Source: a virus. Taken from it: DNA of 46,796 bases. The stretch is from positions 1 through 46,796 of the IMG/VR virus record IMGVR_UViG_3300006922_000042; one strand, written 5' to 3'. Shown in pieces: positions 1 through 11,959 of this stretch. Numbering within the stretch: the first letter of the stretch is position 1; every line of letters starts with the position of its first letter. The notes below the pieces were generated by a model. It ran no database searches and had not been told where the DNA came from. It worked only from the letters and a program-made list of their open reading frames with translations. The translations under genes were made by a program, and so were the position numbers.

Positions 1-10
1 AAAAGGTATC

Positions 11-88
11 ATGCTACCCCCCTGCGAGGGCCGGTGCCCCCATCCACGATGTACGTGTATGTACAAGCACACAGAAGTGGTTTTTTAA
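11..88 (+). CDS. Possible Cys-rich micropeptide (25 aa)
   Basis: The ATG at 11 follows an AAGG ribosome-site-like sequence and opens a 25-codon frame ending in TAA at 86-88. The peptide has four cysteines spaced C-x3-C-x4-C-x-C (residues 5-16), with Arg, His and Pro between them, like a small metal-binding knuckle. I recognise no family. The frame stays open to the window edge (Lys-Gly-Ile before the Met), so it could also be the tail of a longer gene. Length alone makes chance likely; the spaced cysteines are the only support. Confidence 0.22.
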   Translation: MLPPCEGRCPHPRCTCMYKHTEVVF

Positions 89-93
89 GCCAC
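77..93 (+). terminator. Weak hairpin, possible terminator
   Basis: GTGGTTT pairs with AAGCCAC (7 bp with one G-T pair, loop TTT), followed by AACTTTT. It sits at the end of the micro-ORF at 11-88. The stem is short and AU-rich, so termination would be weak. Confidence 0.25.
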
Positions 94-186
94 AACTTTT
101 ACGTGTATACGCACCTATGTATTATCACATATTGTTACAAACCTGCAATATATGTAACATTTTACAGGTAATCGCTTCATAGGGTA

Positions 187-214
187 TTGACAGGGGTGGC
201 TTTGTGAGTATAAC
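187..214 (+). promoter_or_regulatory. Sigma70-like promoter, rightward
   Basis: TTGACA at 187-192 is followed after 16 bp by TATAAC at 209-214. The -35 is a perfect consensus and the -10 matches five of six bases. It points into the repeat array and the first genes at 569 and beyond. No phage RNA polymerase gene is seen, so use of host sigma70 polymerase is expected. Confidence 0.55.
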
Positions 215-231
215 TGCGTAGCAGTAGCAGC

Positions 232-429
232 AGAGTTATAACACTTTAAGTTAAAACACTTAAAAAAGAGTAATACTTAAAAGTAAAGTAATACTTTAGA
301 AGAGTTATAACTTTATATAGAGTGTTGTAAATGGGTTAGTGGACATAGGAAGAGTTATAACACTATAGTAACACTTTATTCTTGTATAACATGTTTGTAA
401 GTGATATACTTTCTTTAATGTAACACTTT
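232..429. repeat. Iteron-like array, consensus AGTTATAACACTTT
   Basis: At least eight related copies lie here. AGAGTTATAAC occurs at 232, 301 and 351. Degenerate copies are at 249 (AGTTAAAACACTT), 269 (AGTAATACTT), 287 (AGTAATACTTT), 367 (AGTAACACTTT) and 419 (TGTAACACTTT). The core GTTATAAC is a perfect palindrome. Cores are about 14-20 bp apart in the first group, with two gaps of about 50 bp later. Such arrays bind replication initiators or repressors. The array is just downstream of a promoter, so operator or origin are both possible. Confidence 0.5.
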
Positions 430-568
430 CTCATAAGCAATAATCATAATTTGTGTTACAAACTGGTACGTGTTGCAACTCTTAGTGTTGCTCTCCCCCT
501 TGTCTCCTCTCTCAATACTTGTAGTTTGCGGCACGTACCACTTTTTTACGTGTATTAATGTATTGACA

Positions 569-826
569 ATGAAAAATAAAAACATACAACTATATGCATC
601 TGATAATGTAATAGAAGAGTTTTACGATGCTCTTGTATCAGGTGACGCATCACGTTTGAAACGTGTACACATTCCTAAGAGTGACGTATTCTATGTAAGA
701 GCAGCTATAGAGGCTGACACTGGCATCAGGTATTCTTTAGATCACGTAGAACGTGCTATGTACTTAGAGGGCCACTTACCTAGAAGAGACGTATTAGATC
801 CTGACAGAAAGCGGAGCTACGGCTAA
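569..826 (+). CDS. Conserved phage protein of unknown function (85 aa)
   Basis: The ATG at 569 (protein begins MKNKNIQLYAS) is preferred over the longer frame from TTG at 470, whose extra residues are a low-complexity Leu/Ser run. The protein is mixed helical and soluble, with a charged middle (residues 20-70, including a DVFYVRAAIEADTGI stretch) and a basic end. No ribosome site precedes this ATG; TTGACA abuts it, which may mark a promoter with a near-leaderless transcript. Its stop overlaps the next start (TAATG). I do not recognise a family. Confidence 0.6.
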   Translation: MKNKNIQLYASDNVIEEFYDALVSGDASRLKRVHIPKSDVFYVRAAIEADTGIRYSLDHVERAMYLEGHLPRRDVLDPDRKRSYG

Positions 827-1092
827 TGCCCTATATGACTAACGGTAAGCGTGACTACAAGAAGCAGAACGCTAAGTATGACAGCAAGCCATCCGTAAAG
901 AAGGATAGGGCTTCTCGTAATGCTGCACGTAAGGCTATGATGGCTGGTGGCTTAGCTAAGAAGGGTGACGGTAAGGATGTTGACCACAAGGATGGCAACC
1001 CTCGTAACAACAAACGTTCTAACTTGCGTGTACAGACTAAGGCTAAGAACCGTAGTGTAGCTCGTACAAGCAGCAACAAGAAAAAAGGATAA
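826..1092 (+). CDS. Small basic HNH-like protein (88 aa)
   Basis: The C-terminal half (about residues 52-78) has DVDHKDGNPRNNKRSNLR followed by KAKN, the layout of the second half of many phage HNH endonucleases (D-H-x-D-G-N-x-x-N-N-x-x-x-N-L). The N-terminal 50 residues are Lys/Arg-rich, without the usual zinc cysteines, and contain AGGLAKKG. It may be a minimal HNH nicking enzyme or a DNA-binding derivative. It overlaps the previous stop by one base (TAATG), so translation is probably coupled. Catalysis is inferred from the motif only. Confidence 0.65.
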   Translation: MPYMTNGKRDYKKQNAKYDSKPSVKKDRASRNAARKAMMAGGLAKKGDGKDVDHKDGNPRNNKRSNLRVQTKAKNRSVARTSSNKKKG

Positions 1093-1097
1093 GTAAA

Positions 1098-1388
1098 ATG
1101 CCAGCAAATAACTCAACAGCAAGACCAAAGAATCGTGACCAAAAACAAGCGACTCAGTTACTTAAAGATATAAAAACTCTTAAAGCCAAGCTTCGTAAGC
1201 AGTTAGGAAAAGGTGAAATAACTCAGGTTGCTTTTGATAGGACTATGAAAAAACTTGACCCAGCTTTTAAAGGTGCTGTCGTTAAAGGTATATCAGAACC
1301 AAAGATACAACAAAGTGAAAGAAATGCAGCTAAAAAGACTATGACTTATTCTACTTCTCGTAGAACAGGTAGAAAAGTTAAAAGTTAA
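1098..1388 (+). CDS. Small basic protein, unknown (96 aa)
   Basis: The ATG at 1098 lies a few bases after an AAAAGGATAAG ribosome-site region. The protein is Lys/Arg-rich with a probable helical hairpin at residues 15-60 (ATQLLKDIKTLKAKLRKQLGKG, then TQVAFDRTMKKLD). It ends in a basic tail with RTGRKVKS. I recognise no family. It is one of about ten small cationic proteins encoded back to back between 826 and 3963. A nucleic-acid-binding or packaged virion role is a guess from charge and context. Confidence 0.6.
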   Translation: MPANNSTARPKNRDQKQATQLLKDIKTLKAKLRKQLGKGEITQVAFDRTMKKLDPAFKGAVVKGISEPKIQQSERNAAKKTMTYSTSRRTGRKVKS

Positions 1389-1398
1389 AGGTAATCCT

Positions 1399-1701
1399 AT
1401 GGCTAGTGAGACTCGCAGAGAAAAAGCTATACGCAAGACTACTAAAGGTAAGAACGCTAATTACCGTAAGACCAAAGACGGTGCAGGTATGACAACTACA
1501 GGTATAGCTGCCCATCGTAAAGCTAACCCCAAGTCTAAGCTACAGGGTGCTGTGACAGGTGAAGTTAAGAAGGGTAGTAAGGCTGCAAAGCGGCGTAAGT
1601 CTTACTGTGCTAGAAGTGCTGGGCAGATGAAGAAGTTTCCTGCAGCAGCTAAAGATCCTAACTCTCGTTTGAGACAAGCCCGTAAACGTTGGAAATGCTA
1701 A
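1399..1701 (+). CDS. DUF6321-like basic protein (100 aa)
   Basis: The middle and end (about residues 48-100) carry AVTGEVKKGSKAAKRRKSYCAR, then DPNSRLRQARKRWKC, matching my recollection of the DUF6321 family: small proteins, common in marine phages, ending in a Lys-Trp-x-Cys tail. Function is unknown. Two cysteines (the YCAR one and the terminal one) and more than 30 basic residues suggest nucleic acid contact. The start at 1399 is preceded by AAAGGTAATCCT. Codon use resembles its neighbours. Confidence 0.65.
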   Translation: MASETRREKAIRKTTKGKNANYRKTKDGAGMTTTGIAAHRKANPKSKLQGAVTGEVKKGSKAAKRRKSYCARSAGQMKKFPAAAKDPNSRLRQARKRWKC

Positions 1702-1716
1702 GGAGTATAAGCAGTT

Positions 1717-1854
1717 TTGAAGAGTCAGATTAAACGGAAGTTACCTAAACGTAAACGCCCTATTCAGAAACTCAAGAAACAAAGATACTTACAAAAGAAG
1801 AAAGACAAGGAGTTTGATGCAGGTGACACTTATATCTCACCTTCCGCTGCCTAG
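1717..1854 (+). CDS. Tiny basic protein (45 aa), TTG start
   Basis: A 45-codon frame opens at TTG 1717, 11 bases after AAGGAG (1700-1705), and ends in TAG at 1852-1854. The product is strongly cationic in residues 2-32 (LKSQIKRKLPKRKRP, then KKQRYLQKKKDK) and resembles its neighbours in composition. It overlaps the following gene in another frame. The good ribosome site and charge pattern support it; the TTG start and size keep confidence modest. Confidence 0.42.
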   Translation: MKSQIKRKLPKRKRPIQKLKKQRYLQKKKDKEFDAGDTYISPSAA

Positions 1855-2071
1855 TATGCCTTTCCAGACACATGAGAATATTGTGTTTGAGAGTCAAGAC
1901 AAAGACAGATCACATAAAGCTAATGTAGAAGAGAAACCAGAGCCTAACAAGGTTACGCCTGACACTGCAGTAGAGGATCTTAAATTAGTTAATCAAAAGT
2001 ATGCATACCACCCTGATCCAAACAAGCTTAGAATGCCTGATGGTCAGATTGTAGACTTTATCATTGCTTAG
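1817..2071 (+). CDS. Hypothetical protein (84 aa)
   Basis: The ATG at 1817 follows AAGGAG (1807-1812) by four bases; a TTG at 1814 would add one residue. The N-terminal 15 residues are hydrophobic (MQVTLISHLPLPSMP). The middle is charged and Lys/Glu/Pro-rich. The last 25 residues contain KYAYHPDPNKLRMPDGQIVDF, which looks like a short folded motif. No family is recognised. It overlaps the previous small gene by 38 bases in a different frame and is followed by the coiled-coil membrane protein at 2104. Confidence 0.5.
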   Translation: MQVTLISHLPLPSMPFQTHENIVFESQDKDRSHKANVEEKPEPNKVTPDTAVEDLKLVNQKYAYHPDPNKLRMPDGQIVDFIIA

Positions 2072-2103
2072 GGGTAGGCGATGCAAATTGAGAGAGAGAC
2101 ATT

Positions 2104-2556
2104 ATGGATCCTATTACAATCGCTATGGCGAGTTTCAGCGCCGTTAAAGCAGGGGTTTCTGCCGGGAAAGAGATAACTTCTTTAGCTAAAGACATTGGTA
2201 GTTTATTCCAAGCAATAGATGACATTAAGGATGACCACAGTAAGAAAAGAGATAGTGTCTTTGCTAATTCAAATGAGGAAGCTTTATCCACGTTTGTAGC
2301 TCGTAAGAAAGCAGAGGACATGGAAGAGGAGCTAAGACAGATCGTCATAGCTACACGCGGCTTCTCTGCTTGGGGTGAATTGGTAGAGTTACGCAAAGAG
2401 ATACGTGTACGTAATAAGAAGGAACGGGAAGAGAAGCGCAAGAAGACGCAAAAGATGGTAGAGAATATACTTATTTATGGTGGTATAGGTCTAATACTTT
2501 TATTTGTTTGTGGCTTTGCGTTACTAATCCTGCTGAAATACATGGGAAAGATATAA
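2104..2556 (+). CDS. Coiled-coil protein with C-terminal membrane anchor (150 aa)
   Basis: Residues 1-50 are an amphipathic, Ala/Ser/Gly-rich region (MDPITIAMASFSAVKAGVSAG). Residues 60-120 are a long charged helix ending in a run of Lys/Arg/Glu. Residues 122-146 are one strong membrane span (IYGGIGLILLFVCGFALLILL). I recall similar proteins in marine phage genomes, with no known function. A membrane-anchored coiled coil would suit a role at the host envelope, for example in lysis or superinfection control. It is not a canonical holin because the span is terminal and single. Confidence 0.65.
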   Translation: MDPITIAMASFSAVKAGVSAGKEITSLAKDIGSLFQAIDDIKDDHSKKRDSVFANSNEEALSTFVARKKAEDMEEELRQIVIATRGFSAWGELVELRKEIRVRNKKEREEKRKKTQKMVENILIYGGIGLILLFVCGFALLILLKYMGKI

Positions 2557-2557
2557 C

Positions 2558-2719
2558 ATGGCTACACCGACTAACAAAAAACTCTATGCAACTGTAAAGG
2601 CAGCAGCTAAAAAGAAATTTAAAACATGGCCTAGCGCTTATGCATCAGCCTGGTTAGTTAAGGAATACAAGCGTAGGGGAGGCAAATATAGTGGCTCAAG
2701 CAAAAACAAAGTCGCGTAA
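2558..2719 (+). CDS. DUF5872-like N-terminal half (53 aa)
   Basis: The ATG at 2558 directly follows the previous stop. Residues 1-46 (NKKLYATVKAAAKKKFK, then WPSAYASAWLVKEYKRRGG) match the N-terminal part of the DUF5872-type proteins I recall from giant viruses and phages. The frame ends in TAA at 2717-2719, after overlapping the next gene by 29 bases. In longer homologues as I remember them, this segment and the next gene's sequence form one chain, so the two may be a split protein. Function is unknown. Confidence 0.62.
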   Translation: MATPTNKKLYATVKAAAKKKFKTWPSAYASAWLVKEYKRRGGKYSGSSKNKVA

Positions 2720-2975
2720 GACAGGCCACCTAATACAAAGCCGTAGGGGTTACGCTAAGGGTGGCTTAGGTAAGTGGTTTGGTGAAGAGTGGACAGATGT
2801 AAAGACCGGCAAAGAATGTGGTCGCTCAGGTAGTAAAGACTCAGGTAGACCTTACCCTGCATGTAGACCTAAAGCTGTAGCTAGTAAGATTAGTAAGAAA
2901 GAAGCTGCTAAGAAGACTGGCCCTAAGAAAGTAAAGTGGTCAACGACTGCATCAGGTAAAAAGAGAACAACATAA
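2691..2975 (+). CDS. DUF5872-like C-terminal half (94 aa), GTG start
   Basis: The GTG at 2691 follows AGGGGAGG (2675-2682) by eight bases, a strong ribosome site inside the previous gene. Residues 22-65 have KGGLGKWFGEEWTDV, then CGRSG and PYPACRP, the Trp/Cys pattern of the DUF5872 C-terminal part (W-F-x-E-x-W, C-G-R, Y-P-x-C-R-P). The remaining third is a Lys-rich tail. Function is unknown. The three conserved cysteines could bind a metal. The stop overlaps the next ATG (TAATG). Confidence 0.65.
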   Translation: MAQAKTKSRKTGHLIQSRRGYAKGGLGKWFGEEWTDVKTGKECGRSGSKDSGRPYPACRPKAVASKISKKEAAKKTGPKKVKWSTTASGKKRTT

Positions 2976-3370
2976 TGGCTGATAAAAGACCCCCTAAAAT
3001 AGGTGAGTTTCAAGAGCGCTACACTGGAAAAAAGACCCCTAAGTGGTTACTTGATGCATATATACAAGGTAGTAAAAGCTATAATGCAAAAGAATTAAAG
3101 CATAAAATAATAGGTTATGCAGAGAAAAATAACCTAAAATACCCACAGGTTGTTGCACAAGCTAGAGGTGAAGCAAATCAGATTAAGCATTACTTAAAAA
3201 AGACTGTGACACCTAGTGGTAAAAATAAAGCAAGAAAACCTAAAGTATCTGGCGGCGGCGGTATGTTTAAAATAGGTGATACAGCAAGCTCTATAAATAG
3301 AGGAACCCTGTCTGTAGCTAAAAAACGTCAAATGAATAAGGGTGGATTAACTAAAAAGGCTAAAAAATAA
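2975..3370 (+). CDS. Basic protein, unknown (131 aa)
   Basis: Residues 1-75 look like a small helical domain (KIGEFQERYTGKKTPKWLLDAY, then a helix containing YPQVVAQARGEANQIKHYLK). Residues 76-131 are a flexible Lys/Gly tail with a poly-Gly stretch (GGGGMFKIGD) and the ending NKGGLTKKAKK. The terminal GG-L-x-KK motif recurs in several proteins of this phage. It starts at a TAATG overlap and ends at another, so it is part of one coupled run. No family is recognised. Confidence 0.6.
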   Translation: MADKRPPKIGEFQERYTGKKTPKWLLDAYIQGSKSYNAKELKHKIIGYAEKNNLKYPQVVAQARGEANQIKHYLKKTVTPSGKNKARKPKVSGGGGMFKIGDTASSINRGTLSVAKKRQMNKGGLTKKAKK

Positions 3371-3552
3371 TGGCTAAAGGCGTAAAGCATTACTTTAAGG
3401 ATGGTACTGAACATAAAGGTGGTATGCATAAGATGCCTAATGGTGAAGTACACTCTGGTAAGACTCACGGTAAGAACAGTAAGAGGTTGTATCACTTGAA
3501 AGACTTGAGTGCTACAGCAAAGAAAAAAGCAACAACTCAAGGGAAGAAGTGA
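3370..3552 (+). CDS. Tiny basic protein (60 aa), His/Lys/Gly-rich
   Basis: It starts at the TAATG overlap at 3370. The first half is a beta-like repeat with many His and Gly residues (HYFKDGTEHKGGMHKMPNGEVHSGKTHGK), suggestive of a short hairpin-repeat fold or metal binding. The second half is a Lys-rich helix. I recall similar 'DGTxHxGxxHKMPNGxVHSGKTH' peptides in marine phage genomes without a function. Its place among cationic proteins suggests a shared role. Confidence 0.6.
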   Translation: MAKGVKHYFKDGTEHKGGMHKMPNGEVHSGKTHGKNSKRLYHLKDLSATAKKKATTQGKK

Positions 3553-3553
3553 C

Positions 3554-3730
3554 ATGGCTAATAAACCAATGAATGCTGGTATGGCAGCACTAAAGAAAGA
3601 GGCACCTGCTGTAGCTAAGAAGATGGGTTATATGGGTGGCGGTATGGCTAAGAAGAAGGGTTACAACACAGGCGGTTACTGTGGCGCATCTAATCCAGCA
3701 AAGAACCCTGTTAAGCGTGGTAAAGCCTAA
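3554..3730 (+). CDS. Tiny Gly/Lys/Met-rich protein (58 aa)
   Basis: The ATG at 3554 (two bases after the previous stop) is preferred over the upstream TTG at 3509, which would overlap the neighbour; GGGAAG precedes it. Residues 27-45 (MGYMGGGMAKKKGYNTGGY) contain the GGG-M-x-KK motif shared with other proteins here, then a Cys-containing stretch and a basic tail. Low complexity and lack of a hydrophobic core suggest a disordered, nucleic-acid- or virion-associated peptide. No family is recognised. Confidence 0.55.
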   Translation: MANKPMNAGMAALKKEAPAVAKKMGYMGGGMAKKKGYNTGGYCGASNPAKNPVKRGKA

Positions 3731-3963
3731 TGGCTAAGTATTACGATAAGTATAAGAAGCAGCTTAATGCGGCAGGTTACACTATTGATGGTGATGGCAT
3801 GGTTTGGGATGCTAATGGCAACCAATCTGCAGGTGAGGATCGTTTTGGTAACGTACAAAGTAAAGACCCTAACGTTACTCAGATCTGTATGGACGCAGAG
3901 GCATCAGGTATATTTAAAAAAGTAAAGAAGGCTATTAAGCCAAAAACTAAGAAAGAAGCTTAA
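3730..3963 (+). CDS. Small basic protein, unknown (77 aa)
   Basis: It begins at a TAATG overlap. The N-terminus (MAKYYDKYKKQLNAAGY) is an amphipathic helix, followed by an acidic Gly/Asn-rich loop (DGDGMVWDANGNQSAGEDRFG) and a Lys-rich tail (KKVKKAIKPKTKKEA). The central loop reads like a small beta-hairpin around Trp. No family is recognised. Its stop overlaps the start of the decoration-like gene at 3963, so translation is coupled. Confidence 0.6.
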   Translation: MAKYYDKYKKQLNAAGYTIDGDGMVWDANGNQSAGEDRFGNVQSKDPNVTQICMDAEASGIFKKVKKAIKPKTKKEA

Positions 3964-4322
3964 TGTCTTTTGTGAATCAAGGTAAGCCAGCACGTATTAA
4001 GTCTGTTTATGGGCATAATACAGGTACGACTACAGAGAATGTCTATACATGTCCTGCAAACTGTACTGCTGAGATTACTTTTATTCATGTAGTTAATGGT
4101 GGTGGTTCTACTAACACAGTAGAAGTAGGTTGGTATGTAGCAGCAGCTAACTATGTTTCTAAATTTTTAAGTGCTAAATCTCTAGGTGGGGGTGATTACA
4201 TAAGCTTCAATCAGATAGATTTAGTACTACAACCTAATGATCAAATAAGAGTTACCCCTACAGGTTCTGGGCATATAGATACGATATTAACAGTTACAGA
4301 AACCTTTGTGCCTGTAGGGTAA
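3963..4322 (+). CDS. Putative small beta-sandwich virion protein (119 aa)
   Basis: Unlike its basic neighbours, this protein is rich in Thr, Val and Gly with alternating polar/hydrophobic strands throughout (for example AEITFIHVVNGGG, VEVGWYVAAANY, IDLVLQPNDQIRVTPTG), typical of small phage head-decoration or fibre proteins. I recall similar proteins in marine phages next to structural genes. A head-decoration or neck role is inferred from fold and place before the terminases. It ends the run of coupled genes; a non-coding gap with a hairpin follows. Confidence 0.55.
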   Translation: MSFVNQGKPARIKSVYGHNTGTTTENVYTCPANCTAEITFIHVVNGGGSTNTVEVGWYVAAANYVSKFLSAKSLGGGDYISFNQIDLVLQPNDQIRVTPTGSGHIDTILTVTETFVPVG

Positions 4323-4369
4323 CGGGTATGCACATTATGTATCTACTATAGCGCTAACATATAAGTATA

Positions 4370-4400
4370 ACTATCTCCGCACGTAACATAAGGAGATAGT
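4370..4400 (+). promoter_or_regulatory. Hairpin holding the ribosome site of DUF1127
   Basis: ACTATCTCC (4370-4378) pairs perfectly with GGAGATAGT (4392-4400), a 9-bp stem with a 13-base loop. The 3' arm contains the GGAG ribosome site for the ATG at 4404, so when folded the site is hidden. This looks like a translational switch (thermometer, protein- or RNA-bound operator). No T run follows, so it is not an intrinsic terminator. Confidence 0.6.
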
Positions 4401-4403
4401 GCA

Positions 4404-4553
4404 ATGTTTAAGAATTTACTGACACGTATTCAAAATCACCAGCAGCGTAGAGCAGACTACTGGGTTTTAAAGAATATGTCTAATAAAGAGCTACACGATA
4501 TAGGTATTTCTCGTGGTGAGATATACAACCGTGTATACGGTGAGTACAAGTGA
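4404..4553 (+). CDS. DUF1127 family protein (49 aa)
   Basis: ATG at 4404, GGAG ribosome site eight bases before. Residues 10-49 match the DUF1127 (YjiS-like) pattern: an Arg/Gln-rich helix (QNHQQRRADYWVLKNMSNKEL), then HDIGISRGEIYNRVYG, with the signature L-x-D-I-G-[IL]-S-R. DUF1127 proteins are small, basic and common in Alphaproteobacteria; in Rhodobacter and Agrobacterium, members affect RNA stability, small-RNA production or stress and phosphate responses. A phage copy may alter host RNA metabolism. It is isolated from the basic-protein run by a gap and sits behind a hairpin, like an independently controlled accessory gene. Confidence 0.85.
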   Translation: MFKNLLTRIQNHQQRRADYWVLKNMSNKELHDIGISRGEIYNRVYGEYK

Positions 4554-4696
4554 GGTTAAGAAACAGCATTCCTGTTATTCTTAGCCTTACAGTTTTTACT
4601 CACGTATCATCTGGTGATACAGATAGACAGACAGGTTCTGGACTTAACAGAGGCTTAAATAAAAATAAAGCTTGCTTTTGTAGTAAAACTTCATAA
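4550..4696 (+). CDS. Possible exported micropeptide (48 aa), GTG start
   Basis: GTG at 4550 overlaps the DUF1127 stop (GTGA), a coupling arrangement. Residues 1-22 look like a signal peptide or membrane anchor: two Arg near the start, then SIPVILSLTVFTHVSSG. The mature part is polar with a Cys-x-Cys near the end (ACFCSKTS). Frame ends in TAA at 4694-4696. No homologue is recognised. The overlap and signal-like start are the evidence; it could still be chance. Confidence 0.35.
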   Translation: MRLRNSIPVILSLTVFTHVSSGDTDRQTGSGLNRGLNKNKACFCSKTS

Positions 4697-4734
4697 AACT
4701 ATAAGGCAAGCCTATCTATAAAGGACAACTTCAT

Positions 4735-5103
4735 ATGGCAAGAAACCTCACAGAAAATCAACAAAAGTTTCTAGAAGTACTCTTCGATGATGCTGGTGGT
4801 GATGTTGTGCTTGCCAAGAAGTTGGCAGGTTACAGTAACGGCACACCGACTCGCATTATAGTGGAGGCACTTAAAGATGAAATTGGAGAAGCTACAAGAT
4901 CTTATTTCGCCCGTACAGCGCCTAAAGCTGCAATGGCTATGGTACAGGCTTTGTCTGACCCTACAGAGCTTGGGATAAAAGATAAGATGAGTGCCGCTAA
5001 AGACTTGCTTGATCGTGCTGGACTTGGTAAAGTAGATAAAGTTGATGTTACCTCAACAGGTGGCGTCTTTTATCTACCACCAAAAGAAGGTAATAACGAA
5101 TAG
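4735..5103 (+). CDS. terS: Terminase small subunit (122 aa)
   Basis: It lies directly before the large terminase. The N-terminal region (about residues 1-60) reads as a helix-turn-helix DNA-recognition domain (LTENQQKFLEVLFDDAGGD, then AKKLAGYSNGTPTR). A helical middle contains APKAAMAMVQALSDPTELGIKDKMSAAKDLLDRAGL, a phrase typical of small terminases ('K-x-x-AAKDLLDRAG'). The C-terminal tail is beta-like (VFYLPPKEG). It should bind the packaging site and regulate the large subunit. The ATG at 4735 follows AAAGGACAACTTC. The stop is TAG at 5101-5103. Confidence 0.78.
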   Translation: MARNLTENQQKFLEVLFDDAGGDVVLAKKLAGYSNGTPTRIIVEALKDEIGEATRSYFARTAPKAAMAMVQALSDPTELGIKDKMSAAKDLLDRAGLGKVDKVDVTSTGGVFYLPPKEGNNE

Positions 5104-11729: not shown

Positions 11730-11757
11730 TTGACAATAACATTATCATAGATAAAAC
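11730..11757 (+). promoter_or_regulatory. Promoter upstream of major capsid gene
   Basis: TTGACA (11730-11735) starts one base after the scaffold stop; TAAAAC (11752-11757) follows after 16 bases, with further AT-rich sequence (CTATAGCATATACA) behind. It lies in the longest gap inside the structural block (about 230 bases), so a dedicated promoter for capsid protein is plausible. Confidence 0.5.
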
Positions 11758-11789
11758 TATAGCATATACACATATATTAAAGTGTGTGT

Positions 11790-11921
11790 ATGCTTTATGA
11801 AAAGCACAATCGCCACAAATATAAGACTCACCCTGACGTATAGGCCCAGCGCTTACAGAGAGGCATCTCTAAAGCAAAGCTGACTACCCTACTACAGAAG
11901 GCCTCTTTCAAGTGGGTATAG
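11790..11921 (+). pseudogene. Possible 43-codon mini-gene interrupted by TAG
   Basis: In the gap before the capsid gene, ATG 11790 opens 17 codons (MLYEKHNRHKYKTHPDV) to TAG 11841-11843; the same frame then runs 25 more codons (AQRLQRGISKAKLTTLL and on) to TAG 11919-11921. The second half looks like an amphipathic helix. CAG (Gln) to TAG is one base. No good ribosome site is seen. It may be a broken mini-gene or chance; the rest of the 11730-11959 gap holds only the promoter and the capsid ribosome site. Confidence 0.22.
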
Positions 11922-11959
11922 TGTTACTATCAACGCCATATCATTGAAAGGAAACCATT

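Follow-up and report, generated by a model that had tools for sequence, protein, structure and literature searches.

In bacteriophage T4, a hairpin at the genes e, soc, 49 and I-TevI, as at mobE of phage Aeh1, closes the early transcripts, and the transcripts from the late promoter lack its 5' part (PMC3014915, PMC2988022). Control through the mRNA leader has also been described for a cellular duf1127 gene, in the attenuator of S. meliloti, whose 279-nt leader acts by way of an upstream ORF and, probably, of termination by Rho (PMC12218461). As for the proteins of this family, the member CcaF1 binds RNA, and the small DUF1127 proteins of A. tumefaciens and YjiS bind the sensor kinase PhoR (PMC12501420). 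The locus described here is a DUF1127 gene carried by a phage, with a leader that probably works in the manner of the T4 genes. It lies in the window, the whole stretch of 46,796 nucleotides of viral DNA that was analysed, and comprises the following features:

4323-4332, + strand: upstream element CGGGTATGCA (consensus [AG]CGGGnnTGCA), about 46-55 nt ahead of the predicted start
4366-4371, + strand: extended -10-like hexamer TATAAC at a fixed offset from CGG, with the predicted start at about 4377-4379
4370-4378, + strand: 5' arm (anti-SD) ACTATCTCC, overlapping the end of the -10 hexamer and the bases before the predicted start
4379-4391, + strand: loop of 13 nt, starting with GCAC, which is able to pair weakly with GTGC at 4399-4402
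4392-4400, + strand: 3' arm GGAGATAGT with the Shine-Dalgarno (SD) core GGAG, the perfect complement of ACTATCTCC
4404-4553, + strand: DUF1127 gene, 49 aa (PF06568, E = 1e-8)
4550-4696, + strand: conserved GTG ORF of 48 codons, its frame kept in relatives, with a 4-nt overlap (GTGA) with the DUF1127 stop
4735-5103, + strand: terminase small subunit (phrog_2538, E = 1.2e-5), with the packaging genes next

The window is from an HMO-2011-type phage, as it encodes a related terminase and a family A DNA polymerase with the DnaJ central domain, the DnaJ_CXXCXGXG match being weak (E = 0.004) and below Pfam's own cut-off. The terminase is 57-88% identical to those of CRP phages and 72% to that of HMO-2011, and the portal is SU10-like. 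The 49-residue product, named a DUF1127 protein in the earlier note, was confirmed as a member of the family with 35.2 bits against the curated cut-off of 23.3. When the gene was sought in other phages of the HMO-2011 type, it was found in each of the 11 sequenced CRP roseophages that the terminase search had turned up, six times with tblastn and five times with a profile, and the CRP-603 record already annotates a 'DUF1127 domain-containing protein'. These isolates, from the set CRP-1 to CRP-738 (PMC9038755), belong to the same phage group as the window and all carry both the gene and the leader; a text search of that paper for promoters, hairpins and DUF1127 came up empty. A genome search did not find the gene in HMO-2011, ctYwJ313, HTVC033P, HTVC115P and RHph_N3_19. 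The first query of IMG/VR yielded relatives in 223 stretches, and three scans of viral contigs, this one included, gave 240 loci beyond the isolates. DUF1127 genes in unrelated context and without this leader were also seen in other phage contigs (L234-L248). The nearest cellular relatives found share about 30-45% identity over most of their length, with short stretches up to 74%.

DUF1127 is the first gene of a run that holds lysis and packaging genes. That it stands alone between two gene runs, as had been proposed, was only half right, since the GTG ORF at 4550-4696 overlaps its stop by 4 nt and in the relatives CRP-13 and CRP-207 it is the terminase small-subunit gene that does so. The GTG ORF is probably translationally coupled to DUF1127. 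Family searches gave no match for it; its product is hydrophobic over an N-terminal stretch, keeps a DRQTGSGL motif in relatives and may be a small lysis (spanin-like) protein. Further downstream, a gap of 230 nt (11730-11959) precedes the major capsid gene and contains TTGACA-16-TAAAAC at 11730, probably a separate capsid promoter.

The SD AAGGAG occupies 4390-4395, 8 nt ahead of the ATG at 4404. The perfect 9-bp stem of 4370-4378 with 4392-4400, observed in the earlier note, was borne out in full, with the GGAG inside its 3' arm. RNA of 4365-4413 folds to -13.0 kcal/mol (z = -3.65; 0 of 200 shuffles equally stable), whereas the whole-leader fold of the longer stretch 4323-4463 is not unusually stable (z = +0.66), so that the hairpin signal is local. 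Among the approximately 53 gene starts of the window, no other SD lies under a perfect, GC-containing stem with a short loop.

We compared the leaders after clustering them at 80-85% identity, which gave about 96 clusters: a first set of 41 and 55 more found later by the promoter pattern, none of these within 85% of the first set. All figures on leader structure are thermodynamic predictions. The pairing of each SD with its own leader was stronger than with SDs swapped between leaders, -13.8 against -9.2 kcal/mol over 94 clusters, and this held in the 41 clusters (-14.75 against -9.65) as well as in 53 new ones (-13.07 against -8.92), with 0 of 20,000 permutations reaching the difference in each case, counts that are not true probabilities because the permutation ignores the kinship of clusters. 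A control swap with the block just upstream made only a small difference (-6.8 against -6.6), and the effect was also found in 18 leaders below 62% similarity. The predicted probability that the SD is unpaired was 0.23 in the first 41 clusters against 0.46 in shuffled leaders, and 0.12 in the 55 further clusters, where 215 other genes with a GGAG on the retrieved contigs gave 0.455.

The arms change between lineages and the pairing is kept, which answers the call for a covariation check: 55 distinct 8-mers occur in 95 clusters, and the register of the stem differs too. The arms CTATCTCC, CTACTCCT, TAGTCTCCG, TATAACTCCT, AAACTCTCCTTAGT and others all still pair, and the pairs by lineage include ACTATCTCC/GGAGATAGT, ACTACCTCC/GGAGGTAGT, ACTACTCCT/AGGAGTGGT, TAGTCTCCG/CGGAGACTA, TATAACTCCT/AGGAGTTATA and AAACTCTCCTTAGT/ACTAAGGAGAGTTT, besides others. 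Several lineages have extra inner stems of varying sequence. The SD lies in the loop rather than the stem in CRP-2, and in CRP-603 it is the start codon that is paired. According to the earlier note, relatives with the gene but without the stem would count against the hairpin; nearly all of the approximately 96 clusters retain structure over the SD or start codon, while a few phages outside the group that share only the DUF1127 fold (L007 and L234-L248) have no such structure. These comparisons support the view that the leader hairpin hiding the DUF1127 SD is under selection.

A standard sigma-70 scan gave nothing at this site and no TTGACA-type promoter at the gene, and an anchored comparison of leaders was therefore undertaken. 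It revealed a block made up of a CGGG-type element and TATAAC or TATAAT, in which the start-to-start offset from CGG to TATAA is 42-45 in 43 of 46 leader clusters and exactly 43 in 31. The three exceptions have CTGG for CGGG (L009), TATACT for TATAA (L191) or an uncertain start (L224). A spacing fixed across a spacer that is poorly conserved is what a DNA-binding site at about -50 together with an extended -10 would produce; no known activator for the block was identified. TG stands one base ahead of the hexamer (TGnTATAA) in 63 of 95 clusters, where about 6 would be expected, and the hexamer of the window is preceded by AAG, without the TG of an extended -10.

The block goes with the gene. 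Its strict pattern is found at most once per genome on the strand of the gene: once in 15 of 21 carrier genomes searched, at DUF1127 wherever the position was checked. Six carriers escape it because their block deviates slightly, and the five non-carriers do not have it. Ten further terminase relatives comprised five with gene and block and five with neither, and in IMG/VR CGGGGTTGCA-N31..34-TATAAC stood directly ahead of a DUF1127 frame at 116 of 118 places. A looser pattern (CGGGTATNC..TATAAT) was too unspecific, with 23 of 120 places before DUF1127, and was left out of the evidence. A role for the block as a late promoter used generally in the group was rejected, because neither block nor gene is present in HMO-2011, ctYwJ313, two pelagiphages and a Rhizobium phage.

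With the RNA start taken as 7 nt past the hexamer, the SD partner lies at or before the predicted +1 in 40 of 41 clusters. The 5' arm starts within the hexamer in most lineages and the hexamer stands between the arms in L094, L200 and L004; in either layout the RNA from the gene's own promoter would lack the anti-SD arm. The predicted openness of the SD accordingly differs between read-through and own-promoter RNA, being 0.23 against 0.78 in the 41 clusters and 0.12 against 0.70 in the 55. In the window the own-promoter RNA (4379-4413) folds to just -4.7 kcal/mol, and pairing of GCAC with GTGC in it would, in the predicted fold, leave the SD in a loop. Both motifs are present in just 13 of 95 clusters, so this alternative stem was dropped as a core element and is regarded as a detail of some lineages. 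Read-through RNA from the early run of the + strand is likely, given a perfect TTGACA-16-TATAAC promoter at 187 and small same-strand genes at 470-4322 that follow closely up to 4322; a search of 1-4800 for terminator-like sites on the + strand gave none. Near the promoter at 187, the intergenic stretch 230-367 before the + strand genes has three GAAGAGTTATAACAC-like repeats (230, 299 and 349), which are possible operator or origin sites.

From the predicted start and folds, we consider it reasonably probable that the leader is a transcript-origin switch of the T4 type, here serving another gene, in phages unrelated to T4. Messages started upstream and read through 470-4322 would contain both arms and form the 9-bp stem, leaving the SD inaccessible and DUF1127 untranslated. 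A dedicated promoter, formed by the CGGG..TGCA element and TATAAC/TATAAT with no consensus -35, would become active later than the early promoters, and its RNA, without the anti-SD arm, would leave the SD open. DUF1127 would then be expressed only once its own promoter is on, probably late, as it heads the run of lysis and packaging genes, and its protein may then target the host by binding RNA or PhoR. The earlier note had proposed a translational switch of the gene's own, possibly self-regulated or temperature-sensitive. The SD-hiding hairpin under selection agrees with the former part, and nothing found points to temperature or self-regulation as the opener. The promoter-like element overlaps the 5' arm, so transcripts started there would lack it, which offers a simpler way to open the SD.

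The hexamer could, however, be stem sequence only, as the copy in the window has no TG, and all messages would then carry a hairpin that is opened or closed in trans by DUF1127 itself, a host RNA-binding protein, an sRNA or temperature. The stability of the hairpin by itself and its conserved pairing are in keeping with such control, as are the RNA binding of CcaF1, a DUF1127 protein (PMC12501420), and the control of a cellular duf1127 gene by its own mRNA leader (PMC12218461). We nevertheless hold it to be unlikely, since it leaves unexplained the fixed CGGG-TATAA spacing and the TG ahead of the hexamer, and since no conserved protein-binding motif was seen among the widely differing loop lengths, inner stems and arms. 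An Rfam search of the leader gave no match to a thermometer (ROSE, FourU) or riboswitch family; thermometers of types beyond the known Rfam families are conceivable, but a stem of -13 kcal/mol in a seawater phage would be an unlikely one. The overlap of the inverted repeat with the promoter-like hexamer in most lineages would also suit a DNA operator, bound by a repressor, possibly a phage regulator, with the SD pairing as a by-product, and in some lineages the arm is similar to repeated AGTTATAAC motifs of the early region. Sequence and spacing would be preserved at a protein site, whereas here the arms, the spacer (about 7 to 45 nt) and the register vary freely, complementarity stays and inner stems are added in some lineages. 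Internal T.G oppositions are more frequent than A.C ones (10 to 5), a direction that speaks weakly for RNA and is not decisive. An operator thus seems very improbable to us. Least credence is given to a hairpin that sets or protects message decay, or couples the following lysis and packaging genes, instead of timing DUF1127: the DUF1127 stop does overlap the next start in the window (4550), CRP-13 and CRP-207, but the downstream neighbour varies by lineage and the leader stays with DUF1127.

The transcript-origin switch in its simple form leaves one feature unexplained. In 41 of 95 clusters (e.g. L205, L209, L197, L166) the hairpin is preceded by a second promoter-like pair, TTGCAN-17-TATAAY, which is absent from the window. 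It is the better sigma-70-like match and overlaps the upstream element, and RNA from it would be closed. The pair is confined to clusters with TTGCA in the element (41 of 57, against 0 of 38 without it) and always has a spacer of 17 nt. In such tandem-promoter lineages, one phage or host factor bound to the CGGG..TGCA element might cover the upstream -35 (TTGCAN; closed RNA) and activate the downstream promoter (open RNA), a quite unlikely arrangement in our judgement. If true, a single bound protein would switch the choice of transcript and its translation together.

Compared with the cellular DUF1127 small proteins (CcaF1, A. tumefaciens, YjiS), the phage protein is alike in domain, size and basic N-terminal half, and by analogy it may act on the host via RNA or PhoR binding; the gene differs in being phage-borne, with its own predicted promoter and leader. 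Either activity would give the phage a reason for delaying DUF1127. The switch would imply that these phages need to keep the protein from being made early, a hint that its activity is directed at the Roseobacter host, at either RNA turnover or phosphate sensing. As in the S. meliloti attenuator, a DUF1127 gene is predicted to be controlled through its mRNA leader; the phage leader differs in that its SD is enclosed in a short hairpin and no upstream ORF was found.

The closest likeness is with T4 e, soc, 49 and I-TevI and Aeh1 mobE. Here too the SD is predicted to be hidden on upstream-started RNA (unpaired 0.12-0.23 against 0.455 for other genes), the predicted promoter overlaps the 5' strand of the hairpin or is contained in it, the transcript from it would, by the predicted +1, be free of the 5' arm (40/41 clusters), and the structure is kept in relatives with changed sequence. 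Unlike in T4, the phage group and the gene are others, and the layout was found only at DUF1127. The T4 late system itself, TATAAATA read with gp55, is not what these leaders have; their candidate promoter is CGGG..TGCA with TGnTATAAY, the hexamer being TATAAC or TATAAT, and the likeness is in the way of working only. Delay by a promoter within a hairpin has so far been known mainly from a few genes of T4, and what looks like the same layout is now seen in an unrelated, abundant group of marine podoviruses, with about 96 natural leader variants on hand for testing it. That the layout recurs, apparently strongly selected, suggests either an origin independent of T4 or a trick much commoner than thought.
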